DNA of 47,727 bases from a virus. The stretch lies in IMG/VR virus record IMGVR_UViG_3300022540_000428, positions 1-47,727 of that record, one strand, 5' to 3'. A program made the translations under genes and the position numbers. Under the pieces are notes generated by a model. It saw only the letters and a list, made by a program, of their open reading frames with translations. It searched no databases and was not told the DNA's origin. Of this stretch, positions 1,050 through 47,727 are shown piece by piece. Every line of letters starts with the position of its first letter. The first letter of the stretch is position 1.

Positions 1050-2069
1050 TTATCCCCTTTTTTCTAATTCGTTACCTATATAATCCAATTCTTTAAAATC
1101 TATGATGTGACATCCAATGACAATGAATTTTAAATCTTGGTTAAAATCTCTTATACTGTAGCCGTCCACTTTGTCACCCGTCATTAATTGACGCTTATTA
1201 AAAAATTTATAAAATCTCAATGCCTCTTTAACGTCTATCTTCACCCCTTGACTTGTAATAATACTATTATCATTACTTACTTTTAAATAATCCCTTTTAT
1301 TGTAATACACGTCAAAAAATATGTCATATTTATTAAAATTGCGTATGGTTAAAACGACCTCATTATGCAATTTTTTAAAAAGTTTATTTTTTCCGTGATG
1401 AAAAAGTGTAGGTAGTAAAGTGTTAATTTTACTTAACCTCTTTTTTGTTTCATCTTTAATAAGGGTTAACTTTTCTTTTTCCTCATTGAAAAGTTTTTGC
1501 TCTTTTTCTCTTTGTTTTAAAAGAGCTTTCCTTTTTATCTCTTTTTCTTTTTCAGTTTTAACTATTTCTTTTTCATAAAACATAATTACATCATCATAAT
1601 TATTAATCTTCAGATACTTGCCATACTTTCGCAAATCTGCTTTTTCAAATTTGATATATTTTTGCATATTGTCTAGTAAGTCTAAAATTTCAACTTGATA
1701 GTTAGTTTTGTTTTGACGTGCTCTTTTTTCTTTGCCTATAAGGTACTTAATTTCATAATTAAAGCTTTTTATATTTGATAAAAGAGAATTATTACAATTA
1801 GGTACAAATATAACGCTATCTGTCCATATCGCACTTCTTAAATCCCACTGTTGCATAGATGTTGTGTGACTGTATATTTCAGTCGATACAATGAAAGTAA
1901 ACTCTTTTCTATGTAAAATAGCTATTACTGTGTTATATGAAGATAAATAACTCCTATCTTCACTTACTCTTACATTCATATTATTACAATAAATATCCCT
2001 ATCTATATTATTAGCGAATAAGTGATTAATCTCACTCCCTGTTGTATATCTGTGTTTTAACCTTGACAT
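1050..2069 (-). CDS. hypothetical protein with central coiled coil
   Basis: A 339-residue protein, the largest of the left operon. Residues about 170-215 are almost entirely Lys/Glu/Arg/Leu (KTEKEKEIKRKALLKQ and on), a strong charged helix or coiled coil. The flanking domains are mixed alpha/beta. The C-terminus contains KFIVIGCHIIDFKELD, with a conserved-looking IGCH motif that I associate with uncharacterised phage proteins. No catalytic motif is evident. The preceding RBS is AAAAGGATAAAAG. It could be a structural scaffold for a host-interacting complex, but that is only inference. Confidence 0.88.
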   Translation of the reverse strand: MSRLKHRYTTGSEINHLFANNIDRDIYCNNMNVRVSEDRSYLSSYNTVIAILHRKEFTFIVSTEIYSHTTSMQQWDLRSAIWTDSVIFVPNCNNSLLSNIKSFNYEIKYLIGKEKRARQNKTNYQVEILDLLDNMQKYIKFEKADLRKYGKYLKINNYDDVIMFYEKEIVKTEKEKEIKRKALLKQREKEQKLFNEEKEKLTLIKDETKKRLSKINTLLPTLFHHGKNKLFKKLHNEVVLTIRNFNKYDIFFDVYYNKRDYLKVSNDNSIITSQGVKIDVKEALRFYKFFNKRQLMTGDKVDGYSIRDFNQDLKFIVIGCHIIDFKELDYIGNELEKRG

Positions 2070-2113
2070 CTTTTATCCTTTTATATTTTGTCTTAAAAAA
2101 GCAAAAAGCCCAT

Positions 2114-2260
2114 TTAATGTTTTAAACCTCTTGATATTAAACCGTTAACGGTTGCAAAATCTTCAACCATAAATAAGTCAAGTATATCTGTGTTTGAGTC
2201 ATTACCCTCATTCCATTCTTGTATAATATCATCATCACTATAATTATTAAAATTTCTCAT
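2114..2260 (-). CDS. 48-aa acidic micro-protein
   Basis: A 48-residue acidic protein (MRNFNNYSDDDIIQEW at the N-terminus). The start is supported by AGAGGA seven bases upstream, inside the end of the preceding gene, with a gap of only two bases. A perfect 14-bp palindrome, AACCGTTAACGGTT at 2140-2153, lies within its coding sequence. Function unknown. Its composition (many Asp, Glu and Asn) would fit a DNA-mimic or inhibitor type protein, which is speculative. Confidence 0.65.
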   Translation of the reverse strand: MRNFNNYSDDDIIQEWNEGNDSNTDILDLFMVEDFATVNGLISRGLKH

Positions 2261-2262
2261 TT

Positions 2263-2721
2263 TTACATCCTCTCTATTTCAATATATTTTAAAATCTTAT
2301 CTTTATTAGAGAGGATTAATTCGGGTTCGCCATCTGAATATAATTCCATCATATCAGATAAAAACTCATTACTTATTTCATCTTTATTTATAAGATTATC
2401 AGATATTTGTTTAATCTCGTTAACTATTTCTAACACTTTTTTAATTTCAGTATAACCGAACTCATCTGCAAAATCCTCTATGTCTAGATAGTCTTGAAAT
2501 TCGTTAAACTCTCTATAATAATTTAGATTATCATAAACACATAACGCTATATTTAATTCTATATACTCTTCACTATAGTTTTCATCATTAATGCTTATTG
2601 AGCAACTATAGTCAAAACTCCAATGCCCTATATGAACTAAATATTCACCTCTCGTAATTTTGTTTAATGAATCTCCAACGTGTTTCACACCTTTAAACTC
2701 TATTGTTAAATCTACTTTCAT
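2263..2721 (-). CDS. hypothetical acidic protein, left operon
   Basis: A 152-residue acidic protein. The N-terminal 60 residues are beta-rich (MKVDLTIEFKGVKHVGDSL; HIGHWSFDYSCSISIND). The C-terminal half is helical and Glu/Asp/Ile-rich. No known domain is recognised. It follows the 37-residue membrane peptide by four bases. As the first sizeable gene after the left promoter it may be expressed early (inference). Confidence 0.85.
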   Translation of the reverse strand: MKVDLTIEFKGVKHVGDSLNKITRGEYLVHIGHWSFDYSCSISINDENYSEEYIELNIALCVYDNLNYYREFNEFQDYLDIEDFADEFGYTEIKKVLEIVNEIKQISDNLINKDEISNEFLSDMMELYSDGEPELILSNKDKILKYIEIERM

Positions 2722-2724
2722 TTT

Positions 2725-2838
2725 TTACCCCTTACTAATTACGATTAAAGCTATTACAAAACTAATAGCTAAACTTATTTTAATGACTTTTGAAAAGTCA
2801 AAACTCTTTTGTCCGTGCTTATGTTGGTAAATTTTCAT
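2725..2838 (-). CDS. 37-aa single-pass membrane protein
   Basis: First gene of the left operon. It has a polar, basic N-terminal part (MKIYQHKHGQKSFDFSK) followed by a hydrophobic stretch of about 15 residues (ISLAISFVIALIVIS), a clear single membrane segment. The ribosome site AAAGGAG lies six bases before the ATG, one of the best in the window. An extended -10 promoter sits about 30 bases upstream. Function unknown; small early membrane proteins in phages often act in superinfection exclusion or host inhibition (general knowledge, not shown here). Confidence 0.72.
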   Translation of the reverse strand: MKIYQHKHGQKSFDFSKVIKISLAISFVIALIVISKG

Positions 2839-2866
2839 CTCTGACTCCTTTGTTTTGAGATGAGTA

Positions 2867-2875
2867 ATTATATCA
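2867..2875 (-). promoter_or_regulatory. extended -10 promoter of the left operon
   Basis: On the minus strand the sequence TGATATAAT is a consensus extended -10 element (TGnTATAAT), 29 bases before the start codon at 2838. No good -35 is present. The -35 area instead holds two near-direct copies of TTTTAGTT (within 2877-2900), related to motifs near the late promoter. Confidence 0.55.
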
Positions 2876-3295
2876 TAAATTTAACTAAAATAAACTAAAA
2901 TTTATCTATTTTTACCATATTTTTTTATTGATATTGAGTATCAACTTGACAAGCTTATTGATAACAGCTCTCAATAATTACGATTTGGGTTTTTTTGAGT
3001 TGTCGCCTTAATAGAAGGTTAGTAGAAAACCCCCCGATTTTTTTATTTTTTTCAAGTCATAGTGACTGACCGGCGACCGGCGACCGGCGACCGGCGACCG
3101 CACCCTAAAATTTTTTTTTTTGTAGAGGTGTCACGGTTTTTTTATAGTTACTTTTTAATTTTATTTATAGTTTATTTATCGTTTTATTATTTATTTTTAT
3201 TGGTTAATATCTTACAACCACTCCGCAACCACCTTGATACCACCTTGATACCACAGGAGCTATTTATGTATCATCACCTGATACATAAATAACAA
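2876..3295. other. noncoding control region with dyads and homopolymer runs
   Basis: This 420-base stretch holds no convincing gene. It contains two dyads, TTGATA/TATCAA near 2936-2953 and TTATTGA/TCAATAA near 2959-2981. It also has a C6 run, T7 runs, GTCA-TAG-TGAC just before the GACCGGC array, and a T11 run after it. This density of dyads and low-complexity tracts suggests a regulatory or replication/packaging region rather than coding DNA. Confidence 0.6.
3068..3100. repeat. GC-rich heptamer array GACCGGC
   Basis: Four complete head-to-tail copies of GACCGGC and a partial fifth (GACCG). In a genome that is otherwise strongly AT-rich this is by far the most GC-rich patch. It is flanked by T-runs on both sides and lies outside genes. 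Possible roles are a protein-binding array, a helicase or polymerase pause, or a slipped-strand expansion. Confidence 0.95.
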
Positions 3296-3634
3296 TTAGT
3301 ATTTGTTATCTACCAACTCACCACTATCCTGCAACTCTTTCTTATACTTACGATGCTTTCTCATAGCTTCAGTATGCTTATCTTTATTGTAGTATTGTTT
3401 TGATCCACCTTTATCAATACGTTTCTGATAATTTTCTTCCTGTCTTTCGGGATAAATAGCAAATACTATGAGTCGTCTTGACACATCATATTCACGTGCC
3501 AACTCACGTTGTGATACATCACCTATTTTAAGATACCTGTAACGTATCTCTTCTTTATCCCCTGCTGTAAGCTTAACCCTCTTATCTTTCTTTATTGGAA
3601 TATATTGTTTATTTGATTCAAATTTATATGGCAT
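3296..3634 (-). CDS. helix-turn-helix DNA-binding protein
   Basis: A 112-residue basic protein. Residues about 23-57 (LTAGDKEEIRYRYLKIGDVS then QRELAREYDVSRRLIVFAIY) form a helix-turn-helix of the resolvase/IS-like kind. The remainder is Lys/Arg-rich and polar. It stands alone between two noncoding regions, with its own RBS (AAGGAGCATAAAG). It is likely a small regulator or site-specific DNA-binding protein. The target is unknown; the nearby GACCGGC array is a candidate (inference). Confidence 0.75.
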   Translation of the reverse strand: MPYKFESNKQYIPIKKDKRVKLTAGDKEEIRYRYLKIGDVSQRELAREYDVSRRLIVFAIYPERQEENYQKRIDKGGSKQYYNKDKHTEAMRKHRKYKKELQDSGELVDNKY

Positions 3635-3772
3635 CTTTATGCTCCTTAATATGTGGAAGTATATAATATAAAAGCTTATACTAAGCTTTACTTTAATTTA
3701 CTATACATATTTTTTCGCCAATTTTTTACCCATTTTTATCGGTATTTTTTTACCCTATTTTTTAAGGGTTTT

Positions 3773-4330
3773 TTAAGGGCTTTTTTTAAGGAGTCTTTTT
3801 AACTGAGCTTTATACTCAACAGTAAACCCACGCTTACCACCTTTACCTCTGAAGAATGTAGTAACAAACTCCTTTTCTGCCTTAGCTTGTGTGAACATAT
3901 ATGAAGGTGTGATTGAGAAATGAGGGAGTAGTGGGAATCGTTCTTTACCTACTCTTGTAAGAACAAATGTATTACGTTTACTTTTACCTTTAATAAAAGC
4001 ATTTCTCATCTTCTTACTTTTCTTTTGTATCTTATAAGATACACCACCTGATTTTAACTCTTTAGCATAAAATTCATTTAAGTTAATAGGGGTTGAGTGC
4101 ATCTTAAAAACATACACTGATTTCCCCACATTTGCACGTTTAATTTTAACCTTTTTTTTAAGGTCACTTGTTCTAAGATTCCACGCACTTTTAGCTTTAA
4201 GTAAAGAAGCTGTTGTTGCAACACCACCGGCTTTATTCATACTAAACGCAACAGCTTTAGGGTTATCTCTATGAAAGTTCTTAAACTTACGAATCAAAGG
4301 TTCAATGCCTTTGACTTTTAAGATAAACAC
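3773..4330 (-). CDS. gpZ-like minor tail (tail completion) protein
   Basis: A 185-residue, very basic protein. The N-terminal section, with KAVAFSMNKAGGVATTASLL followed by an RTSDLKKKVKIKRAN-like segment, resembles the prophage minor tail protein Z family. Members of that family finish the head-proximal end of siphophage tails. In lambda-like phages this gene sits between head connectors and the tail tube; here it is some 36 kb away in linear coordinates (about 11 kb across the circular join), in a regulatory-type block. The similarity is by recognition only, so confidence is moderate. Confidence 0.6.
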   Translation of the reverse strand: MFILKVKGIEPLIRKFKNFHRDNPKAVAFSMNKAGGVATTASLLKAKSAWNLRTSDLKKKVKIKRANVGKSVYVFKMHSTPINLNEFYAKELKSGGVSYKIQKKSKKMRNAFIKGKSKRNTFVLTRVGKERFPLLPHFSITPSYMFTQAKAEKEFVTTFFRGKGGKRGFTVEYKAQLKRLLKKSP

Positions 4331-4963: not shown

Positions 4964-5222
4964 TACTCCACGTACTCCATTGTACTCCAACGTGTACTCC
5001 AACGACAAAGCCCGTCCACACCGTCTGTACTCCATATACTCCACCTTTTTTATATAATATAAAATAAAAAGTAAGTAGGTATAGTATAGTATAGTAAGGT
5101 ATAATATAATAACATACAAGTGGTGGGTATATAGAAAGTGGAAGAGTATTGGAGTTTTTGGAGTATCGACGCTGAGAGCGTGGTTTGCAGATGGAGTACA
5201 ATAATCCGTACTCCGGAGTACG
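4964..5222. repeat. iteron/operator region: TACTCCA boxes flanking an AT-rich core
   Basis: Six copies of TACTCCA face one way (4964, 4973, 4983, 4995, 5028, 5037). After an AT-rich core (5044-5110) come inverted copies TGGAGTA at 5159 and 5192, a near copy at 5150, and a perfect 16-bp palindrome CGTACTCCGGAGTACG at 5207-5222. The palindrome abuts the stop codon of the primase-helicase gene. Clusters of short iterons around an easily melted AT core are the classic form of a replication origin. The same arrangement could be a multi-site operator for the RHH gene. No convincing protein is encoded here. Confidence 0.8.
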
Positions 5223-7502
5223 CTAAGACTTTAATATAAATGCGTTTAATTTAACGCCATCTATTTTTAAAGAGGTCTTAGCACCAAAAGACTCTCTTAG
5301 ATAATGAGCCTTATATGAAACACTTTTATAATCATCACCATAAACCTCTTTAGCTATAGTGACAAATATATTATTTAAAGAACCTAATCTTTTAGCGTAC
5401 AATATACCACCCTTTAAAATAAAATCGTCATATATAAGTTTATCAATACCATCATGTTTGAACTTAGCTGAACTCATAACATCCTTGACCCTTGTAATTA
5501 TCTTCTCAATCAATTCACCAACGTTATCTTCCATGCTCTCTTCCAACCCATATTTCTTATGAAATTTTGATACCTTTTTTTGAGCAAGGTCATAGGAGTT
5601 TGCTTTACCCATCTCAACATACTCAGCAATCTTCTCTTTAAGTATGCAGTACACTTCCCATTTCAAACCGGTGAAGTATCTCGCTTTGGACTCACGAAAG
5701 AGCTTCCTTGTATCAAGACTGTTATTACCCATATCCCAAAATGAGAACCGGTTAGCGAACTGTCGCTCAGTATTATTAACAAGGCTATCCAAACCCTCTG
5801 CATTAGCTAACCATTTTGTATATACCGGTACAGTGACTCTCTTCTGACCTTTAGGTGATAATTTCATCTTACTCGTAATACCTTTGAAATCTGAGTTGAT
5901 ATATTTCACTTCATCAAAGAACAGGATCCAAGCAGTTCTGAACATATTGGCACTTAAGCCCACAGGATCACCTGTACCTGCCTTTTTTAACTCTTTCTCA
6001 TTAATCTCAGCTACTAACCCAAGTTCAGCAAAAACATCGCCTATGAACGATTTACCAAAGTCTGAGATCATCTTAGTATAGAGATAACATTTCTTTCTTT
6101 CCGGTGCAAACCTTGAAGCAGTAATAAAGTCAAGTAGCTCATCGAAATGTTCAAAGTGATCTCTATAATCATCGATGAATTTTTTAGTATCATACTCTGG
6201 TTGCTGTATATCAACATTAGGAAACATATCATGTAGTGAAAGGTGAAGCGTATCACCATAAACCCAAACCTCATCCTCAGTTTTGAACGGATCGATCTCA
6301 ATATACTTTTCATCATATTGATTGTACGTGGTGATGTGAGATTTGGTTGACTTCCGAATAGCTTTAAACTTCTCTTCTAACTTAGTTTTCTCAGAATTAA
6401 GAGCATCAATTCTGACACCCATGTTACCGTCCTTATCAGTACGTGTAACACCCCCGTCTTTATTAAGAACAACCTCACTGATCTTAGCAACCTCAGCATC
6501 AATATCACTTACCATGCTTTGATTAAATGGATTACCATATACGTTATAAATAGTAGTCCACAGTTCACTTTCGAGGAGGAAGATCCACTTACCATTGTCA
6601 TTCAGTAATTCATAACCCCCTCTGACTCTCATAACCTTCTCTTTAATCTTATCAATAATATCCCAATCTACTTCTTCTTGATCCTGCCGGGGTACTCCCT
6701 TTGGGGGTTTATAATCCTTACTTTGAACAGATACATGACCTTTCTTTTTGGAGAAATCAGGTGCATGGGGAATCACATATCCACCCTGTTCTGCTAAGTG
6801 GTATAATGTACCTAATCCTAATTGACCATCATCGGCAAATGATTTCCATTTGTATTCAGTACCACCATCATAGTTCTCAGACTGTTTAGACCACTTATCC
6901 CATAGCTTCAGACCTTCTACCTCATCCCATGCTTTAAGTGCCATACCCACTTGATACCATTCATCATAATCATCATAGCTGTGTATGTATGAGAGAAGTT
7001 CTTTGACTTTCTTTTTATCGGTGTTGTTGTATTTGGATTTAGTTTTTTTACGCTTGGTAGGTTTTGATCCTTCCAATTTTTTGAGTATATATTTTGAGAG
7101 TTTTTTAGGCATTTTTTTAACACCCTCTTTTGTTTTGAAGTAAGATATGTTTTTATTATCACCCCAATAACTATTGAAGATCAAACCACCTTCACTTCTA
7201 AGATCCACAAGTTCCTCATCATCTATCTTACTGCGTGTAGTGAAAAGTGTACTATCATCAACGGTGAAGTAATAATGATACCCCCTCTTTGTATTTATTG
7301 TAGCTTCATTTGGTAATAGTTCCCTAAGTACAGGGTCAAGTTTATTAAAGTCGGTGGTGTCAACATCAACAACAACTAAACCATTTCCACTAAGTATGAA
7401 TGTTGCATTAGCATCTTTTTTTTTCATAGATCCCCAAGTTGATCCGAAATCTACTTTCTTTTTATTCTTTTTTTTATCCCATGTGATATTACAATATTTC
7501 AT
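5223..7502 (-). CDS. PrimPol primase fused to D5/SF3-like helicase
   Basis: A 759-residue replication protein. The N-terminal PrimPol-type domain has the DxD pair (VVVDVD, Asp46 and Asp48) and the family His (KRGYHYYF, His76). A PriCT-like segment follows at about 165-235 (WYQVGMALKAWDE). The C-terminal half has a degenerate Walker A (SDFGKSF, near 482), Walker B (WILFFDEV, near 527) and an arginine-finger candidate (ANRFSF, near 584), as in D5/SF3 helicases. It would lay primers and unwind DNA at the phage origin; the iteron region directly abuts its 3' end. The start is the ATG at 7502 with RBS AAAAGGAGAGTTAC. Confidence 0.88.
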   Translation of the reverse strand: MKYCNITWDKKKNKKKVDFGSTWGSMKKKDANATFILSGNGLVVVDVDTTDFNKLDPVLRELLPNEATINTKRGYHYYFTVDDSTLFTTRSKIDDEELVDLRSEGGLIFNSYWGDNKNISYFKTKEGVKKMPKKLSKYILKKLEGSKPTKRKKTKSKYNNTDKKKVKELLSYIHSYDDYDEWYQVGMALKAWDEVEGLKLWDKWSKQSENYDGGTEYKWKSFADDGQLGLGTLYHLAEQGGYVIPHAPDFSKKKGHVSVQSKDYKPPKGVPRQDQEEVDWDIIDKIKEKVMRVRGGYELLNDNGKWIFLLESELWTTIYNVYGNPFNQSMVSDIDAEVAKISEVVLNKDGGVTRTDKDGNMGVRIDALNSEKTKLEEKFKAIRKSTKSHITTYNQYDEKYIEIDPFKTEDEVWVYGDTLHLSLHDMFPNVDIQQPEYDTKKFIDDYRDHFEHFDELLDFITASRFAPERKKCYLYTKMISDFGKSFIGDVFAELGLVAEINEKELKKAGTGDPVGLSANMFRTAWILFFDEVKYINSDFKGITSKMKLSPKGQKRVTVPVYTKWLANAEGLDSLVNNTERQFANRFSFWDMGNNSLDTRKLFRESKARYFTGLKWEVYCILKEKIAEYVEMGKANSYDLAQKKVSKFHKKYGLEESMEDNVGELIEKIITRVKDVMSSAKFKHDGIDKLIYDDFILKGGILYAKRLGSLNNIFVTIAKEVYGDDYKSVSYKAHYLRESFGAKTSLKIDGVKLNAFILKS

Positions 7503-8884: not shown

Positions 8885-9358
8885 TTACTTTCCTTTCCAA
8901 CACTCTTCAGGTTTGACAGGTATTGCTTCATCCCATGACATACCTTGTATATCAAAATAGCAATTAACACCTTTTGATTTTATTTTAATAGCCATTGTAT
9001 GAATGTTTGTATTATATTCATCTTTAACCCAACATAAAATAGGAGTATCTTCACTTACTTTATTATACCACTCTTTAAGTTTTGAACGGTATTGCTGACC
9101 TTTTAACCAACTTGCTTTACTTACTTCTTCCCACTGATCATACTCATTGTATCTGTGTTCAATAGGTTCACCAAGAGCATCGGCTTTACGTGCTTCAAAA
9201 TATTCATCTTCTATAACATAAATATCTCGTTCAAATTCTAATTTCTTGTCATTATATTTAAACCAATTTCCATCATAGGGTGAATAACCCCATAAAGTAC
9301 CACCGTTAGCCCAAAATGCTATCTCTTTTTCCCATTTTTTTATTTTTTCTTTAGTCAT
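8885..9358 (-). CDS. hypothetical phage protein
   Basis: A 157-residue protein rich in Trp, Tyr, Lys and Glu. The first 35 residues (KEIAFWANGGTLWGYSPYDG) and a central segment (QYRSKLKEWYNK) recall small conserved phage proteins of unknown role. It shares eight bases (ATGACTAA) with the ribbon-helix-helix gene upstream, so it belongs to that leftward transcript. Confidence 0.8.
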   Translation of the reverse strand: MTKEKIKKWEKEIAFWANGGTLWGYSPYDGNWFKYNDKKLEFERDIYVIEDEYFEARKADALGEPIEHRYNEYDQWEEVSKASWLKGQQYRSKLKEWYNKVSEDTPILCWVKDEYNTNIHTMAIKIKSKGVNCYFDIQGMSWDEAIPVKPEECWKGK

Positions 9359-9518
9359 ATTTAATCCTTTTAAGACTTTCTCTAATTGCTACACGTATAA
9401 AAGCACTCATTCGCCACCTCTTCTTTTCCATAAGATCCTCAATCTCTTTTTTCATGGTTGGTGTAACCTTGAACGTTATTGATTCTGTTTTATCTTCTGT
9501 GTTTAAATGTTCTGACAT
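9351..9518 (-). CDS. ribbon-helix-helix regulator
   Basis: A 55-residue protein with a compact ribbon-helix-helix pattern: strand SITFKVTP (13-20), helix TMKKEIEDLMEKK, turn, then helix SAFIRVAIRESLKRI. This is the CopG/Arc type that binds DNA as a dimer through the strand. The RBS AAAAAGGA precedes the ATG at 9518. It is the first gene on the left side of the divergent control region at 9519-9623, so it is a good candidate for an auto-regulator of both directions (inference). Confidence 0.82.
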   Translation of the reverse strand: MSEHLNTEDKTESITFKVTPTMKKEIEDLMEKKRWRMSAFIRVAIRESLKRIKYD

Positions 9519-9623
9519 ATATGTTCCTTTTTATTTGATAAAGCATTGTAACGTGTCTTACCTTTATCTTACATAAAGCTTACCTCAGATATAATTAACT
9601 TATGAAACTTAAAAGGTAATAAA
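9519..9623. promoter_or_regulatory. divergent control region with three CTTAC boxes
   Basis: On the plus strand CTTACA (9568-9573), 16 bases and TATAAT (9590-9595) make a sigma-70-like promoter for the replication operon. On the minus strand TACAAT (9546-9551) is a -10 candidate for the RHH gene with no good -35. CTTAC occurs at 9557, 9568 and 9579, exactly 11 bp apart on one helix face and spanning both promoters. This is the arrangement expected of an operator for an RHH dimer array. Confidence 0.65.
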
Positions 9624-11189
9624 TTGAAACTACGTAAACATCAGAAAAAACAAAATAAACTTACATTAAAAGCATTGAAGGTACACGACCATGTTCTCTA
9701 TGGTGCACCAACCGGATTTGGTAAGTCAATATGTATTCTCGATCTTATCAAACGGTTCATAAGTAATGGTGAAAGAGTATTGATTATAGCTCCATACCGC
9801 AAACTCGTATTTCAATTACTTGACACCTTTGAAGAGTATTCACCGGCTTTACTCATGGGAACAGATAGTTATGGTGATCCGGCAACTTCCCCTATAGTAG
9901 TGGCATCTCTTTCGACACTATCAAGACGATTACAAAAAGATCCTTTGGTGATAGGTGGGTTGGATAAGATCATGATTGATGAAGCTCACATATCATTCAA
10001 CATTGTGGATGGTGTACCTACAACCATAATCAGTGACCTACATAAACGATATTGGGGTACTAGCAAATGGATTGGATTTACAGCAACACCTATAACAGCA
10101 AGTGGATATAGACTTGAAGGATGGGATCACAGTATATATAAGTATAGTACCGGTTGGTTAATTAAGAAAGGTTGGTTAGCTAAATTTGATTATTTCAGTG
10201 CACCTGATATTAATGTTAAGGGTTTGAATGTAAATAAAGCAACAGGTGATTACAACACCTCTGATATGGAAAAGAGAACCAATACTGCAAGTGCTATTAA
10301 TGCAGTTTACAAAAACTATAAAAAGTTTGCAAAAGGTAAAAAAACACTCATCTTTGGAGCATCTATTGAACACGCTAAACTCATACATGCAAAGTTTATT
10401 AAAAAAGGAATAAGCTGTAGGGTTATACACAGCATGATACCTGAGAAGGAACAAAAGAAGATCCTCGCTGAGTATAAAGCCAATGTATTTGATGTGCTCA
10501 TAAATGTAGCCATGCTTACCACAGGTTTTGATGATCCGGAAGTTGAGGTTTTATTTCTTGCACGACCTGTAGGATCTATTAGACTCGCAATACAAATTTG
10601 GGGTAGGTCATTAAGAACACATGGTGATATTCCTAAAGTTAAAATAGTTGATCTATGTAGTGTTTATTTGAAGTGTGGATTACCTGACGATGAACGTAAT
10701 TGGAATAAATCCAAAGATGAAGATGATGAAAAATTTGCAGACGATGGATCTAAAGTTGAAGATGAAGAAGATGATATTACTGATATAGCTATTGAATGTA
10801 GAGAATGTAAATATGTATTTAGAATGATAGATGCTAAAAGGAATACAGTAACAACTAGCGAGTATCTTGAAACAGAATATTTCTGCCCGTCATGTAACAG
10901 TATTGCTAAAGTTATAACCAAAGAATTACAAAGTGTAGAAGTGGCTAAACTATTAACTGCAAGTGACATTGATCAATCAATGAAATATTCTTTGGTAGAA
11001 ATAAAGCAACTTTTAGGTGAAATGATTAAAATGAACACAAGAGCTAAAACATCTTGGGGTCATTTCATCCATAGAGAATGTGTAGTTAAAAACCGGAAAG
11101 CGTATGAAAATGCCTATAAGGGGTATGATCAGAAAGTTTATTCAAGCAATCAAGCATGGAAAAGAATAATGGACATATACAATGGTTAG
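9624..11189 (+). CDS. SF2 DEAH-type DNA helicase with C-terminal zinc ribbon
   Basis: A 521-residue superfamily 2 helicase. It has Walker A GAPTGFGKS (near residue 30), DEAH box KIMIDEAHIS, motif III GFTATPI, and C-terminal motifs LTTGFDDPEV and QIWGRSLRTH. A four-cysteine zinc ribbon (ECREC ... YFCPSC) follows the helicase core. The start is TTG at 9624 with AAAAGG upstream. As the first gene of the rightward operon it probably acts early in replication or recombination. A five-codon ATG frame just upstream (9602-9619) contains the ribosome site and may be a leader. Confidence 0.93.
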   Translation: MKLRKHQKKQNKLTLKALKVHDHVLYGAPTGFGKSICILDLIKRFISNGERVLIIAPYRKLVFQLLDTFEEYSPALLMGTDSYGDPATSPIVVASLSTLSRRLQKDPLVIGGLDKIMIDEAHISFNIVDGVPTTIISDLHKRYWGTSKWIGFTATPITASGYRLEGWDHSIYKYSTGWLIKKGWLAKFDYFSAPDINVKGLNVNKATGDYNTSDMEKRTNTASAINAVYKNYKKFAKGKKTLIFGASIEHAKLIHAKFIKKGISCRVIHSMIPEKEQKKILAEYKANVFDVLINVAMLTTGFDDPEVEVLFLARPVGSIRLAIQIWGRSLRTHGDIPKVKIVDLCSVYLKCGLPDDERNWNKSKDEDDEKFADDGSKVEDEEDDITDIAIECRECKYVFRMIDAKRNTVTTSEYLETEYFCPSCNSIAKVITKELQSVEVAKLLTASDIDQSMKYSLVEIKQLLGEMIKMNTRAKTSWGHFIHRECVVKNRKAYENAYKGYDQKVYSSNQAWKRIMDIYNG

Positions 11190-11568
11190 AAGAAAAAGAA
11201 GAATCCGAAAAACAATTAAACCTGAAGATCTTTTGGTACTTAAATTGAGTAGGTTTATGCTTGATGATTATCCTAAGCAACCCTTTCGTTTTGATCAAGT
11301 TGATCAGATAGGTTTGGAGAATGGTAAGAAACATAAGCAGATACACGGTAAATGGAGTAAACGTTATCCGGATCTCTTTATACCTAAAGTAAAAAAGAAA
11401 TATGGTGGCTTATATTTGGAACTAAAAGCCACTAAAAAGCTCATGAACAATCAACATAATAGGGATCAAGCTGACTTCCATGTGATACTTAGATCATTGG
11501 GATATAAATGTGATTTTTGTATTGGATTAGCTGATTGCATAAGAAAAATAAAGAAATATCTTAAATAA
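11182..11568 (+). CDS. VRR-NUC-type nuclease
   Basis: A 128-residue basic protein. The core RYPDLFIPKVKKKYGGLYLE followed by LKATKK matches the VRR-NUC fold (PD-(D/E)xK class), with Asp in PDLF, Glu in YLELK and Lys. The C-terminal CDFCIGLADCIRKIKKYL resembles the family's last helices. Such nucleases commonly sit next to SF2 helicases in phages and may act as structure-specific junction nucleases. It overlaps the helicase gene by eight bases. Confidence 0.87.
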   Translation: MVRRKRRIRKTIKPEDLLVLKLSRFMLDDYPKQPFRFDQVDQIGLENGKKHKQIHGKWSKRYPDLFIPKVKKKYGGLYLELKATKKLMNNQHNRDQADFHVILRSLGYKCDFCIGLADCIRKIKKYLK

Positions 11569-11671
11569 ACTTTGTTTTATTTTAGTTTAAGCTTACTTAT
11601 GCAATAATACATCATCAAGATAGACAAACTTGATATGAACTTTAACTTATAAACCTAAGATTCAGATAGGG
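11569..11671. other. noncoding leader before the structured region
   Basis: About 100 AT-rich bases without a gene. They contain TTTTAGTTTAAGCTTAC, which resembles elements upstream of other phage promoters here, and -10-like hexamers such as AATAAT. No promoter with both boxes at good spacing is clear. Confidence 0.4.
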
Positions 11672-11886
11672 TTAAGAGCTATTACAGTCTGTCAATAAAC
11701 TGTAACAAAAGAGCTTTTTATGAAGTGATGGAGGAATTAACTATTCTCCGACAGTTAGTGACTGCGTTTACATCACTTCACCAAGAGCTTTTATATGAGC
11801 TACATAGTATTTTAAAGTATTCTAAAACTTCCTCCTTTGAACAATATTTTAATTCCCTTCCCAATACCCACTATGTAGCTCTTATA
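11672..11886 (+). ncRNA. candidate structured RNA or riboregulator
   Basis: Several perfect inverted repeats are nested or side by side. TTACAGT/ACTGTAA lies at 11682-11705. TGAAGTGATG (11721-11730) pairs with CATCACTTCA (11771-11780) and encloses two small hairpins (GAG-AAT/ATT-CTC and CAGT/ACTG), giving a three-way-junction shape. GAGCTACATAGT (11797-11808) pairs with ACTATGTAGCTC (11870-11881). AGAGCT occurs three times and can compete for the later AGCTCT. An open frame crosses the region but lacks a ribosome site. This is either a long structured 5' leader of the gene at 11921 or a separate RNA. Confidence 0.6.
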
Positions 11887-11920
11887 AGAGTTCACACTCT
11901 AATTAATAAAAAGGAAAGTA

Positions 11921-12184
11921 ATGAATATGAAAAAATATTTCATGGGTATGATGGTTTCATTATTTGGTTTTGGAAAACCAAGAGAGAAAAGAGCAAGGGG
12001 TGATTATGCACGTATTAAGACAAGTAAACCAAAGATAGGTAGTTGGAACAACTTGATGAAACTCTTTAGAGAGCACGAGCATGGAACAATGAGTCGTATA
12101 ATTGCACGAAACAATGTGAAAATGTATAAACGTGATGATGTAAAAGACAGAGGGCGACAACGAATCAAACTAGCACACGGTTAA
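11921..12184 (+). CDS. small basic protein, possibly nucleic-acid binding
   Basis: An 87-residue protein, very rich in Arg and Lys, with a hydrophobic start (MNMKKYFMGMMVSLFGFGK). RBS AAAGGAAAGTA precedes the ATG. The central WNNLMKLFREHEHGTMSRII segment looks helical. The first 17 residues could be a membrane-associated helix. No family is recognised. It follows the structured RNA region directly, so its expression may depend on that RNA's folding. Confidence 0.7.
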   Translation: MNMKKYFMGMMVSLFGFGKPREKRARGDYARIKTSKPKIGSWNNLMKLFREHEHGTMSRIIARNNVKMYKRDDVKDRGRQRIKLAHG

Positions 12185-12194
12185 AACCTGTGCT
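12172..12194 (+). terminator. hairpin at the end of the 11921-12184 gene
   Basis: AGCACA and TGTGCT pair around an inner GGTT/AACC segment with one bulged base, overlapping the stop codon. No run of T follows, so it is a weak terminator at best. It may protect the RNA 3' end or separate the RNA-led gene from the downstream operon. Confidence 0.35.
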
Positions 12195-12210
12195 TCATTA
12201 AAGGACAAGA

Positions 12211-12555
12211 GTGAGTACAAGAAAAAAATTAAAAAAGCTGTTGGGTAAAGAACTTGAATATACCGGTGTTATAGGTAATATTTCAAAAAGTGGTGATACC
12301 GTTTGTATTGAGTCGATACAACATAATGGTAAAGAGGTTACGGATCATGTTTGGGTTAGTTTAATACATAACCTTAAAGCACATTCAAAAGGAACTAGGG
12401 TTAAATTTAAGGGCACTGCTTATACTTATACAGATAGTCAGGATAATCGCAAACATGGGCTTAGTAAATGTAAGATGTATGTTGTTGCTAACAAAGTGTA
12501 TGAAGAGGTGCTTGATACAGAGCATCAAAATTTAAAAAATAGGAGAAGAAAATGA
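12211..12555 (+). CDS. hypothetical protein, possible OB-fold
   Basis: A 114-residue protein from a GTG start with RBS AAAGGACAAGA. The segment ELEYTGVIGNISKSGDTVCI, followed later by GTRVKFKGTAYTYTD, shows alternating strands of the small beta-barrel kind seen in OB-fold proteins. The C-terminus is basic (KNRRRK). It lies in the replication operon and overlaps the next start by four bases. The role is only inferred. Confidence 0.75.
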   Translation: MSTRKKLKKLLGKELEYTGVIGNISKSGDTVCIESIQHNGKEVTDHVWVSLIHNLKAHSKGTRVKFKGTAYTYTDSQDNRKHGLSKCKMYVVANKVYEEVLDTEHQNLKNRRRK

Positions 12556-12785
12556 TTCAAAATTTAAAAGAAAATGTGCTAGAGGGTTATTATGCAGATC
12601 ACCCACAAGGTGAAGAGTTACTTACAATCGATTTGGAAGCAGTTTTACATGAACATGAAGTTGCTATTGCGCTTGAAAATCAAGGTTTGGTTGCAGATAA
12701 CAAAGAGTTTGTTAAAGAGGTTGAAGAGTTGAAAGCTTATGTCATTAGACTTAGAGAAGAGATAAACACTCATCAAGAGGTATAA
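12552..12785 (+). CDS. small acidic coiled-coil protein
   Basis: A 77-residue acidic protein. Residues 30-70 (HEHEVAIALENQGL, then EVEELKAYVIRLREE) form a predicted heptad-like helix, suggesting a dimeric coiled coil. It overlaps the preceding gene by ATGA. No family is recognised. Confidence 0.75.
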   Translation: MIQNLKENVLEGYYADHPQGEELLTIDLEAVLHEHEVAIALENQGLVADNKEFVKEVEELKAYVIRLREEINTHQEV

Positions 12786-12853
12786 GTACCTTAACACAAC
12801 TTAATGCTTTGTCAGAATTAGGCAATAAGCAAATAACATATTAGGAGAAAATT

Positions 12854-13288
12854 ATGAGTAAAAAAACAGTAAGTTTAGTAACAGCAACATTGGTATCAGC
12901 ATTTAAAAGAAAAGATCTAAAAGAGATCGGTGCATTGATTCTTGAATCAGAAGGTAAAACAAAAGAAGCACAAGAGATTAGAGATGCAGGTAGATTTACA
13001 GTTGCATTGATTGATCGCACACTTGTAGCAACTGAAACTGAAGAAGATTCAAAAGCGTCTGAAGAAGCTATTGGTGATGGTAGTGAAGGTGTTGATCTTG
13101 AACAAGATACTAAAGACTATCAAAAAGACAAGCTTACCAAAGGTGACATTAAAGACCTCGTTAAAAAGGGTGATAAAAAGTCTTTGAAAAAAGCTAAAAA
13201 AGCACTTGAACTTCAATTTGATGAAGATCATCCTGACTATGCCGGTTTAGCAAAGTTGATCAAAAAAGCTAAAAAGTTGCTGAAGTAA
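12854..13288 (+). CDS. charged hypothetical protein
   Basis: A 144-residue protein. Residues 1-60 are helical and well ordered in appearance (LVSAFKRKDLKEIGALILES). Residues 65-95 are a flexible acidic stretch. The C-terminus is a Lys-rich helical tail (KKAKKALELQFDED ... LIKKAKKLLK). RBS AGGAGAAAATT. It abuts the MazG-like gene by one base (TAATGG). Possibly a nucleic-acid or replication accessory protein, unproven. Confidence 0.78.
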   Translation: MSKKTVSLVTATLVSAFKRKDLKEIGALILESEGKTKEAQEIRDAGRFTVALIDRTLVATETEEDSKASEEAIGDGSEGVDLEQDTKDYQKDKLTKGDIKDLVKKGDKKSLKKAKKALELQFDEDHPDYAGLAKLIKKAKKLLK

Positions 13289-14497: not shown

Positions 14498-14715
14498 AAA
14501 GATTTACACCTTATGATATTGAAAATGTGAATACTTTATTAATGAGTGGTAAACCATTTGCAATATCATTAGCATATTTATTTAAACGAAACTCAGATAA
14601 TAAAATAGATTACTATAGAGAAATGACAAGAGTTTTAATTGAATTAGAAACAAGTAAAGAAAGTGTTGAAAAACAACTAATTGAATATAAAATGAGATAT
14701 GGAGAAATAAAATGA
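14494..14715 (+). CDS. small helical hypothetical protein
   Basis: A 73-residue, mostly helical protein (DYYREMTRVLIELETSKESV). It overlaps both neighbours by four bases. The first 30 residues (FTPYDIENVNTLLMSGKPFA) could be a small DNA- or protein-binding unit. No family is recognised. Confidence 0.72.
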   Translation: MKRFTPYDIENVNTLLMSGKPFAISLAYLFKRNSDNKIDYYREMTRVLIELETSKESVEKQLIEYKMRYGEIK

Positions 14716-15146: not shown

Positions 15147-15451
15147 TGGAAACAGATTGTAAAAAATGTGGTAATTATATTGATGATGCTTTTGAAAATC
15201 CAAATTGTGATGGTTATAGTAAAAATCCATTTTATATTAATTGTTTTATTACAAAGAAAGAGGTAAATGATTACGAGAAGATACTTAGTTATGCCGGTAA
15301 ATATTGTTGTTGGGTGCATGAATATGGTGGTTATTTTGCGTATTGCCATAAAGATGGCAGGTTGATCACTAGAACAGGGTTTGGTGCTGAAAGTAATAGA
15401 ACATGGTCAAGTGTTGGTAATGAGATGTTACAAAAATTTAGGAGTAGGTAA
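15146..15451 (+). CDS. cysteine-rich hypothetical protein
   Basis: A 101-residue protein with an N-terminal CKKCGNYI pair, further cysteines at about 21 and 33, and CC plus one more Cys in the middle (GKYCCWVHEYGG ... FAYCHKDG). This spacing suggests one or two zinc sites. No enzymatic motif. It shares one base with both neighbours. Confidence 0.75.
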   Translation: METDCKKCGNYIDDAFENPNCDGYSKNPFYINCFITKKEVNDYEKILSYAGKYCCWVHEYGGYFAYCHKDGRLITRTGFGAESNRTWSSVGNEMLQKFRSR

Positions 15452-15651
15452 TGGATCTATATCAGAGAATTGATGAAGTGTTACAACATTTTGATTATGC
15501 GTTAGTGGGTGTAAAGGGTAATGCAGTAGATAATAAACTATATGCAAACTTTCCTACAACAAATAACATTATGTATCGTGATTTTACGATTGCGTACGGT
15601 GCTAAAAGAGTCAGTAAACACAAGGGTATGATAAAGATAAAGGATAAGTGA
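15451..15651 (+). CDS. hypothetical protein
   Basis: A 66-residue protein (MDLYQRIDEVLQHFDYALVG at the N-terminus) of mixed composition. RBS AGGAGTAGGTA stands before the ATG. It overlaps neighbours by single bases. No family is recognised. Confidence 0.7.
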   Translation: MDLYQRIDEVLQHFDYALVGVKGNAVDNKLYANFPTTNNIMYRDFTIAYGAKRVSKHKGMIKIKDK

Positions 15652-47672: not shown

Positions 47673-47727
47673 TAGCAGTGAGGGTGTAGCAGTGAGGGTG
47701 TAGCAGTGAGGGTGTAGCAGTGAGGGT
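47673..47727. repeat. 14-bp tandem repeat array (right end), identical to bases 1-55
   Basis: Three full copies and one 13-base copy of TAGCAGTGAGGGTG, in the same orientation as the left array. The 55 bases are identical to bases 1-55, so the window has an exact 55-base direct terminal repeat. De Bruijn assemblers leave exactly one k-mer of overlap on circular contigs and 55 is a common k, so this is most simply a circular or circularly permuted genome cut open inside the array. A true short direct terminal repeat is the alternative. Confidence 0.95.

Follow-up and report, generated by a model that had tools for sequence, protein, structure and literature searches.

We found that the + strand of a viral genome, on which the flanking genes also lie, folds at positions 11674–11893 into three consecutive hairpins whose structure lies far beyond chance. 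The genome is the IMG/VR virus record IMGVR_UViG_3300022540_000428, and the window analyzed here is the whole of that record, 47,727 bases. Folded as a unit, the element reached −59.8 kcal/mol with a z-score of −6.36, and none of 200 shuffled sequences folded as well. The element is real and uncatalogued. For its function, we favor an intercistronic mRNA processing and stability element built around a hairpin of the RNase III type, to which we assign a probability of roughly 0.36.

Genes in this genome lie on the − strand until position 9518 and on the + strand from position 9624, and the element is flanked on both sides by + strand genes (Table 1). The nearer of the two upstream genes was assigned through PHROGs, and its product gave no Pfam match at E 0.1. 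Downstream, 27 nt separate the end of the element from the start of a gene for a basic 87-aa protein, which belongs to no Pfam or PHROGs family and is not an antirepressor by Pfam. Beyond this gene, the + strand carries several small genes together with genes for a MazG-like protein, a Gp2.5-like ssDNA-binding protein, and a DNA polymerase. A search for intrinsic terminators (a G+C-rich stem followed by a U run) returned no site in the gap at 11569–11920 and only two sites within 9000–13000, at 10260 and 10433, both on the − strand. Scans of some of the neighboring genes revealed no reverse transcriptase, the partner expected for a retron. The end of the VRR-NUC gene lies between the arms of a 13-nt inverted repeat at 11534–11605 (ATTGCATAAGAAA/TTACTTATGCAAT, with 12 of 13 positions paired). 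At the scale of the whole record, a tandem 14-base repeat, TAGCAGTGAGGGTG, occupies both ends (1–139 and 47673–47727), with 55 bases of exact identity between prefix and suffix, which may mean that the record is a complete genome whose ends meet in this array.

Table 1. Coordinates of the structured element, its parts, and the surrounding genes in the window.
Feature	Position	Strand	Remarks
ResIII/DEAD-type helicase gene, upstream	9624–11189	+	Assigned by family scan
VRR-NUC/Holliday junction resolvase-like gene, upstream	11182–11568	+	PHROGs phrog_5702 and phrog_824
Gap without a convincing gene, containing the element	11569–11920	+	352 nt
Hairpin A	11674–11718	+	AAGAGCU/AGCUUUU plus UUACAGU/ACUGUAA; 10-nt loop
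Hairpin 2, Y-shaped	11721–11780	+	10-bp perfect stem around two small hairpins
Hairpin 3	11785–11893	+	109 nt; arms 11785–11808 and 11870–11893; 61-nt loop
Competing closing pair UAAGAGCUAU/GUAGCUCUUA	11673–11682/11875–11884	+	Exclusive with hairpin 3
Candidate loop–loop contact GGAGGAA/UUCCUCC	11730–11736/11829–11835	+	Marginal
92-codon open frame across the element	11725–12003	+	Probably not translated
Gene for 87-aa basic orphan protein, downstream	11921–12184	+	AAAAAGGA ahead of start

A preliminary description of the stretch 11672–11886 had reported at least four perfect inverted repeats packed into 215 bases, one of them enclosing two smaller hairpins and one 12 bp long, and we located four such repeats. 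UUACAGU/ACUGUAA lies in hairpin A (11682–11688/11699–11705), whereas the repeat that encloses two hairpins is the stem of hairpin 2 (UGAAGUGAUG/CAUCACUUCA, 11721–11730/11771–11780), within which GAGGA pairs with UUCUC and CAGUU with GACUG. The 12-bp repeat, GAGCUACAUAGU/ACUAUGUAGCUC (11797–11808/11870–11881), forms part of hairpin 3, and the fourth, TAAGAGCTA/TAGCTCTTA (11673–11681/11876–11884), falls within the competing closing pair. The two 24-nt arms of hairpin 3 form 11 bp, a U-U mismatch, and a further 12 bp, giving 23 bp, and the hairpin extends 7 nt beyond position 11886, where the stretch had been thought to end.

Folding against dinucleotide-shuffled controls, the check proposed in that description, was in its favor. 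On the + strand, the 215-nt stretch folded at −55.9 kcal/mol with a z-score of −6.25, and 0 of 200 shuffles were as good; the same 215 nt on the − strand gave −5.26. Hairpin 3 accounted for the bulk of the element's signal, with z-scores of −8.1 on the + strand and −5.4 on the − strand when folded alone. Hairpin 2 alone gave −3.35 on the + strand, which none of 200 shuffles matched, and −3.03 on the − strand. For hairpin A alone, the + strand was weak (−1.3, matched by 18 of 200 shuffles) and the − strand scored better, at −3.2. In a scan of both strands of the genome (1586 positions of 180 nt, step 60, scored against a composition regression), 11701–11880 on the + strand ranked first, with a regression score of −4.06 versus −2.45 for the opposite strand. 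When 13 gaps were compared, the gap containing the element had a z-score of −6.2 on the + strand and the next + strand value was −3.0; one − strand value reached −4.3, in a gap holding a 70-aa frame.

The proposal that this is a structured RNA of no known class was likewise supported, by the + strand fold on the one hand and by the comparison with known families on the other. Rfam 15 gave no match at gathering score in the window. With E-values up to 5 allowed, the best match in the gap was a microRNA model at E 4.3, whose 14.6 bits against a cutoff of 100 represent chance. ARAGORN identified no tRNA or tmRNA gene in the window. The element is not described in the literature that we searched on structured phage RNAs, on VRR-NUC in connection with RNA, on phage sRNAs, and on RNase III sites, a search that covered few subscription papers.

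The open frame at 11725 runs across the element, and the preliminary view that it is not a gene was supported, though not proven. In its unshared part, the frame scored 0.006 log-odds per codon, below the 1st percentile of 0.127 for this phage's real genes cut into 64-codon pieces, and purines made up 50% of codon position 1, again below the 1st percentile of real genes (55%). In tblastn searches of 50,697 phage records and 82 fetched loci, no relative of the frame was found. On the other side, its base-by-position chi-square of 8.6 falls inside the range of real genes, and its open length is unusual: only 19 of 2000 shuffles contained an open run as long as the 87 codons in the gap, and only 5 of 2000 equaled the 83 codons open in 11671–11920. 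The frame is thus probably not a gene, and a small protein gene that happens to fold is, in our judgment, a very unlikely explanation of the element.

Searches at the nucleotide level yielded no homolog of the element. Among 50,697 phage records, the gap matched just pieces of 26–45 nt at E of 1 or worse, a 10-kb megablast returned no homolog, and protein-led searches with the 87-aa protein, the VRR-NUC protein, and the helicase gave no close relative. An alignment of the polymerase yielded 80 loci, among which the VRR-NUC gene was common only to L003, L004/L084, and L011. The nearest named relative is L003, Thiohalocapsa phage LS06-2018-MD03 (OP947165.1), whose helicase, polymerase, and VRR-NUC proteins are 39%, 52%, and 51% identical to those of the window; its host was predicted from CRISPR spacers to be Thiohalocapsa sp. 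PB-PSB1 (PMC10370329). In L003, the gap at 8954–9130, 3′ of the VRR-NUC gene past two small genes, had a z-score of −5.0 on the transcribed strand (0 of 200 shuffles) and folded into a small hairpin and a stem of 28 uninterrupted base pairs, G-U among them, whose loop measures 60 nt. Nothing comparable was present on the opposite strand (regression scores of −4.5 transcribed versus −1.7 opposite). L004 (IMGVR_UViG_3300026521_000230) contained two structured elements, at about 11903–12024 and 14510–14637, both ahead of AntA-type coding sequence, and Pfam confirmed AntA for the gene after the first. In L011, the gap that follows the VRR-NUC gene was weakly structured (z −2.3, matched by 3 of 200 shuffles). 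Around the VRR gene of L084, the gap-filtered stretch was unremarkable (best z −1.9), in a scan that also left out the window's own element, its 92-codon frame being counted as coding. L003 and L004 thus share the helicase and VRR-NUC genes with the window and carry long, strand-specific hairpins of a similar kind in their replication regions. The elements of these relatives have no sequence in common with that of the window, and they need not be the same thing as it. Rfam gave no match at gathering score in five relatives; matches of L003 to microRNA models, at E 0.004 and weaker, were far below their cutoffs and arise from a long hairpin only.

Two further observations were made in these relatives. 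Ahead of the polymerase exonuclease gene of L003, the region 15170–15500 has a tRNA-like look: it contains CCACC and two arms of the TTCGA type, and behind these come a 16-bp hairpin and a closing pair. ARAGORN calls no tRNA there. In L004 and L084, near-identical AntA-type coding starts occur at L004 11880–12160, L004 14478–14881, and L084 1–130, all of one contig. Two of the three sit behind strongly structured elements, and together they possibly represent a repeated module.

We then placed the long hairpin against phage gaps at large. The survey considered noncoding segments of at least 120 nt outside 100-aa frames and counted stems that had 21 bp or more, no more than one mismatch, and a span of up to 160; 9 of 418 segments, drawn from 85 sources, passed. 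Three of these nine were from the window, L003, and L004, and in all three cases only the transcribed strand qualified; the others were from L018 (both strands), L002, a tandem-repeat stretch of L003, L034, L063, and L012. By folding score, strong structures were also found in phages without the helicase/VRR-NUC pair: 13 of 135 noncoding stretches from 21 loci were at −4.0 or below, many of them alike on both strands. These counts indicate that phage gaps seldom contain long hairpins, yet that such hairpins are not unique to the helicase/VRR-NUC group. An association between the long hairpin and VRR-NUC gave a Fisher p of 0.002 (3/4 versus 5/82), where 82 is inexact, some of the 85 sources examined are pieces of one contig, and the window is whole while many others are partial. 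We regard this association as weak because it was formed after seeing the data and the counts are inexact.

The + strand fold was the stronger for the whole element and for hairpins 2 and 3, with hairpin A favoring the − strand. Departures from Watson–Crick pairing in repeats I1 and I2 comprised 4 G-U, 1 A-C, and 2 others; those in the mismatch-neutral repeats of the relatives comprised 4 G-U and 0 A-C. The strand bias and the G-U/A-C counts, small as the latter are, lean towards an RNA on the transcribed strand. For the same reasons, we consider it quite unlikely that the element works at the DNA level, as protein-binding repeats, a cruciform, or an origin, even though AAGAGCT occurs four times within 210 bp (14 copies in the genome versus 6.1 expected) and the − strand folds well too. 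A better candidate for the origin is the array of heptamers beside the primase gene at 4964–5221.

In that array, GTACTCC and GGAGTAC lie in both orientations next to the 3′ end of the primase gene, with 5 and 2 copies, respectively, and 8 and 3 genome-wide. L003 has a comparable GTTCCCA/TGGGAAC array below its primase gene at 5641–5997, and L004 has a 35-bp inverted repeat at 1544–1621, below the gene at 1737–4286. The two arrays and the inverted repeat are candidate replication origins.

The preliminary description had further suggested that three copies of AGAGCT could switch pairing with one AGCTCT. The counts agree with ours, and two competing pairings do exist, but no positive evidence for switching emerged. 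The earlier interpretation as a whole is partly supported. In the best fold all AGAGCT copies are occupied, the first with the AGCUUUU of the second copy and the third with UAUAAGAGUUC. Stacking of the competing closing pair amounts to −17.0 kcal/mol versus −22.4 kcal/mol for the upper part of hairpin 3. A strong pseudoknot between loops 2 and 3 was rejected as a candidate: its initial score, 0 of 100 shuffles, was discounted because hairpin 3 mainly carried it, and with the loops alone 102 of 1000 shuffles matched, a figure that covers only the 6-bp part within the loops, the full 7-bp version borrowing one stem-edge base. We keep the contact itself as a marginal candidate; a comparable loop contact in L003 was matched by 16 of 1000 shuffles.

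The competing pairings would suit a leader acting in cis to control how the 87-aa protein is translated, through autoregulation or an alternative-pairing switch, in the manner of the ant antisense leaders. The short distance from the element to the start of that gene is compatible with such a role, as are the loop sequence UCCUUU, complementary to the AAAGGA of the ribosome site, and the two structured elements that precede AntA-type coding sequence in L004. However, pairing between the loop and the start region was reached by 334 of 1000 shuffles, which lowers the likelihood of this reading; the ribosome site lies outside the hairpins, and Pfam does not make the downstream gene an antirepressor. 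Taken together, we judge a leader function unlikely. The same start-region test gave 392 of 1000 shuffles in L003 and 108 of 1000 and 42 of 1000 in L004. Shine–Dalgarno sequestration, or a translation switch based on it, was tried as a candidate and dropped because neither the window nor L003 exceeded chance.

As a tentative alternative, the element may be a discrete noncoding RNA, about 220 nt long, that is either expressed from a promoter of its own or freed from the operon transcript and that acts in trans, on a protein or on an RNA of host or phage. We rate this almost as likely as a processing element, given the unusual length of the gap that the element has to itself. The operon is otherwise tightly packed, no other + strand gap tested comes close, and three hairpins with a 61-nt loop exposing pyrimidine-rich stretches resemble an RNA gene. 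Against this, a sigma-70-like promoter was searched for in the gap and none was found, the sequence is not conserved in any relative, and the anti-Shine–Dalgarno match of the loop is no better than that of shuffled sequences (78 of 300). This match concerns CCUCCUUU in the loop, which is identical to the usual 16S end; as an anti-Shine–Dalgarno decoy, the loop was rejected, since those 78 shuffles equal it and the relatives lack the match. Phage sRNAs as such are known (PMC12197685).

A broader version of this idea would make the element a member of a discrete RNA class set by architecture, located in the replication regions of phages with a ResIII-type helicase and VRR-NUC, with a sequence that turns over completely. 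The proposed architecture would be a small hairpin followed by a strand-specific hairpin of 21–28 bp whose loop is able to pair outside its own stem. We hold the existence of such a class to be doubtful. If the element is a discrete RNA, it would be invisible to sequence-based catalogues, because among relatives the shape persists while the sequence does not, and architecture-based searches of phage gaps would be worthwhile.

The processing and stability element that we favor would belong, as a structured segment, to the early (replication) operon transcript, placed between the helicase/VRR-NUC genes and the genes that follow. A double-strand RNase of the host, assumed to be of the RNase III type, would cut or bind its long stem, and the remaining hairpins would shield the 3′ and 5′ ends so created, so that each of the two messages, upstream and downstream, could be handled on its own. 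Points in favor of this reading are the strength and strand preference of hairpin 3, the run of + strand genes in which the element sits, the finding of no intrinsic terminator in the gap, and the comparable stems of L003 and L004. We infer transcription, cutting, and uncoupled expression from the sequence and its context. In PMC5371410, the minimum double-stranded size for RNase III is given as 22 nt, which hairpin 3 reaches with 23 bp and one U-U mismatch, and the targets of the enzyme are said to include lambda, T7, and T3 transcripts. A general function in the transcript fits better than control of one gene because the neighboring genes differ among the window, L003, and L004. Some observations point the other way: a processing hairpin in its simple version needs neither three hairpins nor 220 nt, structure near the VRR gene is weak in L011 and unremarkable in L084, and strong structures also occur outside the phages with the gene pair. 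If the processing reading is correct, the element would be an ordinary, unrecorded case of a packed replication operon setting separate levels for its genes.

Several known systems offer points of comparison. C4 of P1 and P7 and CI of P4 are structured antisense leader RNAs of phage ant operons. The sar RNA of P22 is an antisense leader RNA of an ant operon as well (PMC12197685). Like C4, sar, and CI, the element is a structured RNA within a phage transcript and precedes a small gene; unlike them, it has no Rfam C4 match, no significant start-region pairing, and no adjacent ant gene. It also shares with GOLLD, ROOL, and OLE the appearance of an uncatalogued, ornate RNA in a phage-type genome. 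Those RNAs have covariation and Rfam models, whereas the element is much smaller and matches none of them. Compared with the intercistronic RNase III hairpins of T7, T3, and lambda, the element differs in extending over 220 nt, with three hairpins and a loop of 61 nt, and it resembles them in placing a long stem, of about 22 bp or more, between co-directional genes.
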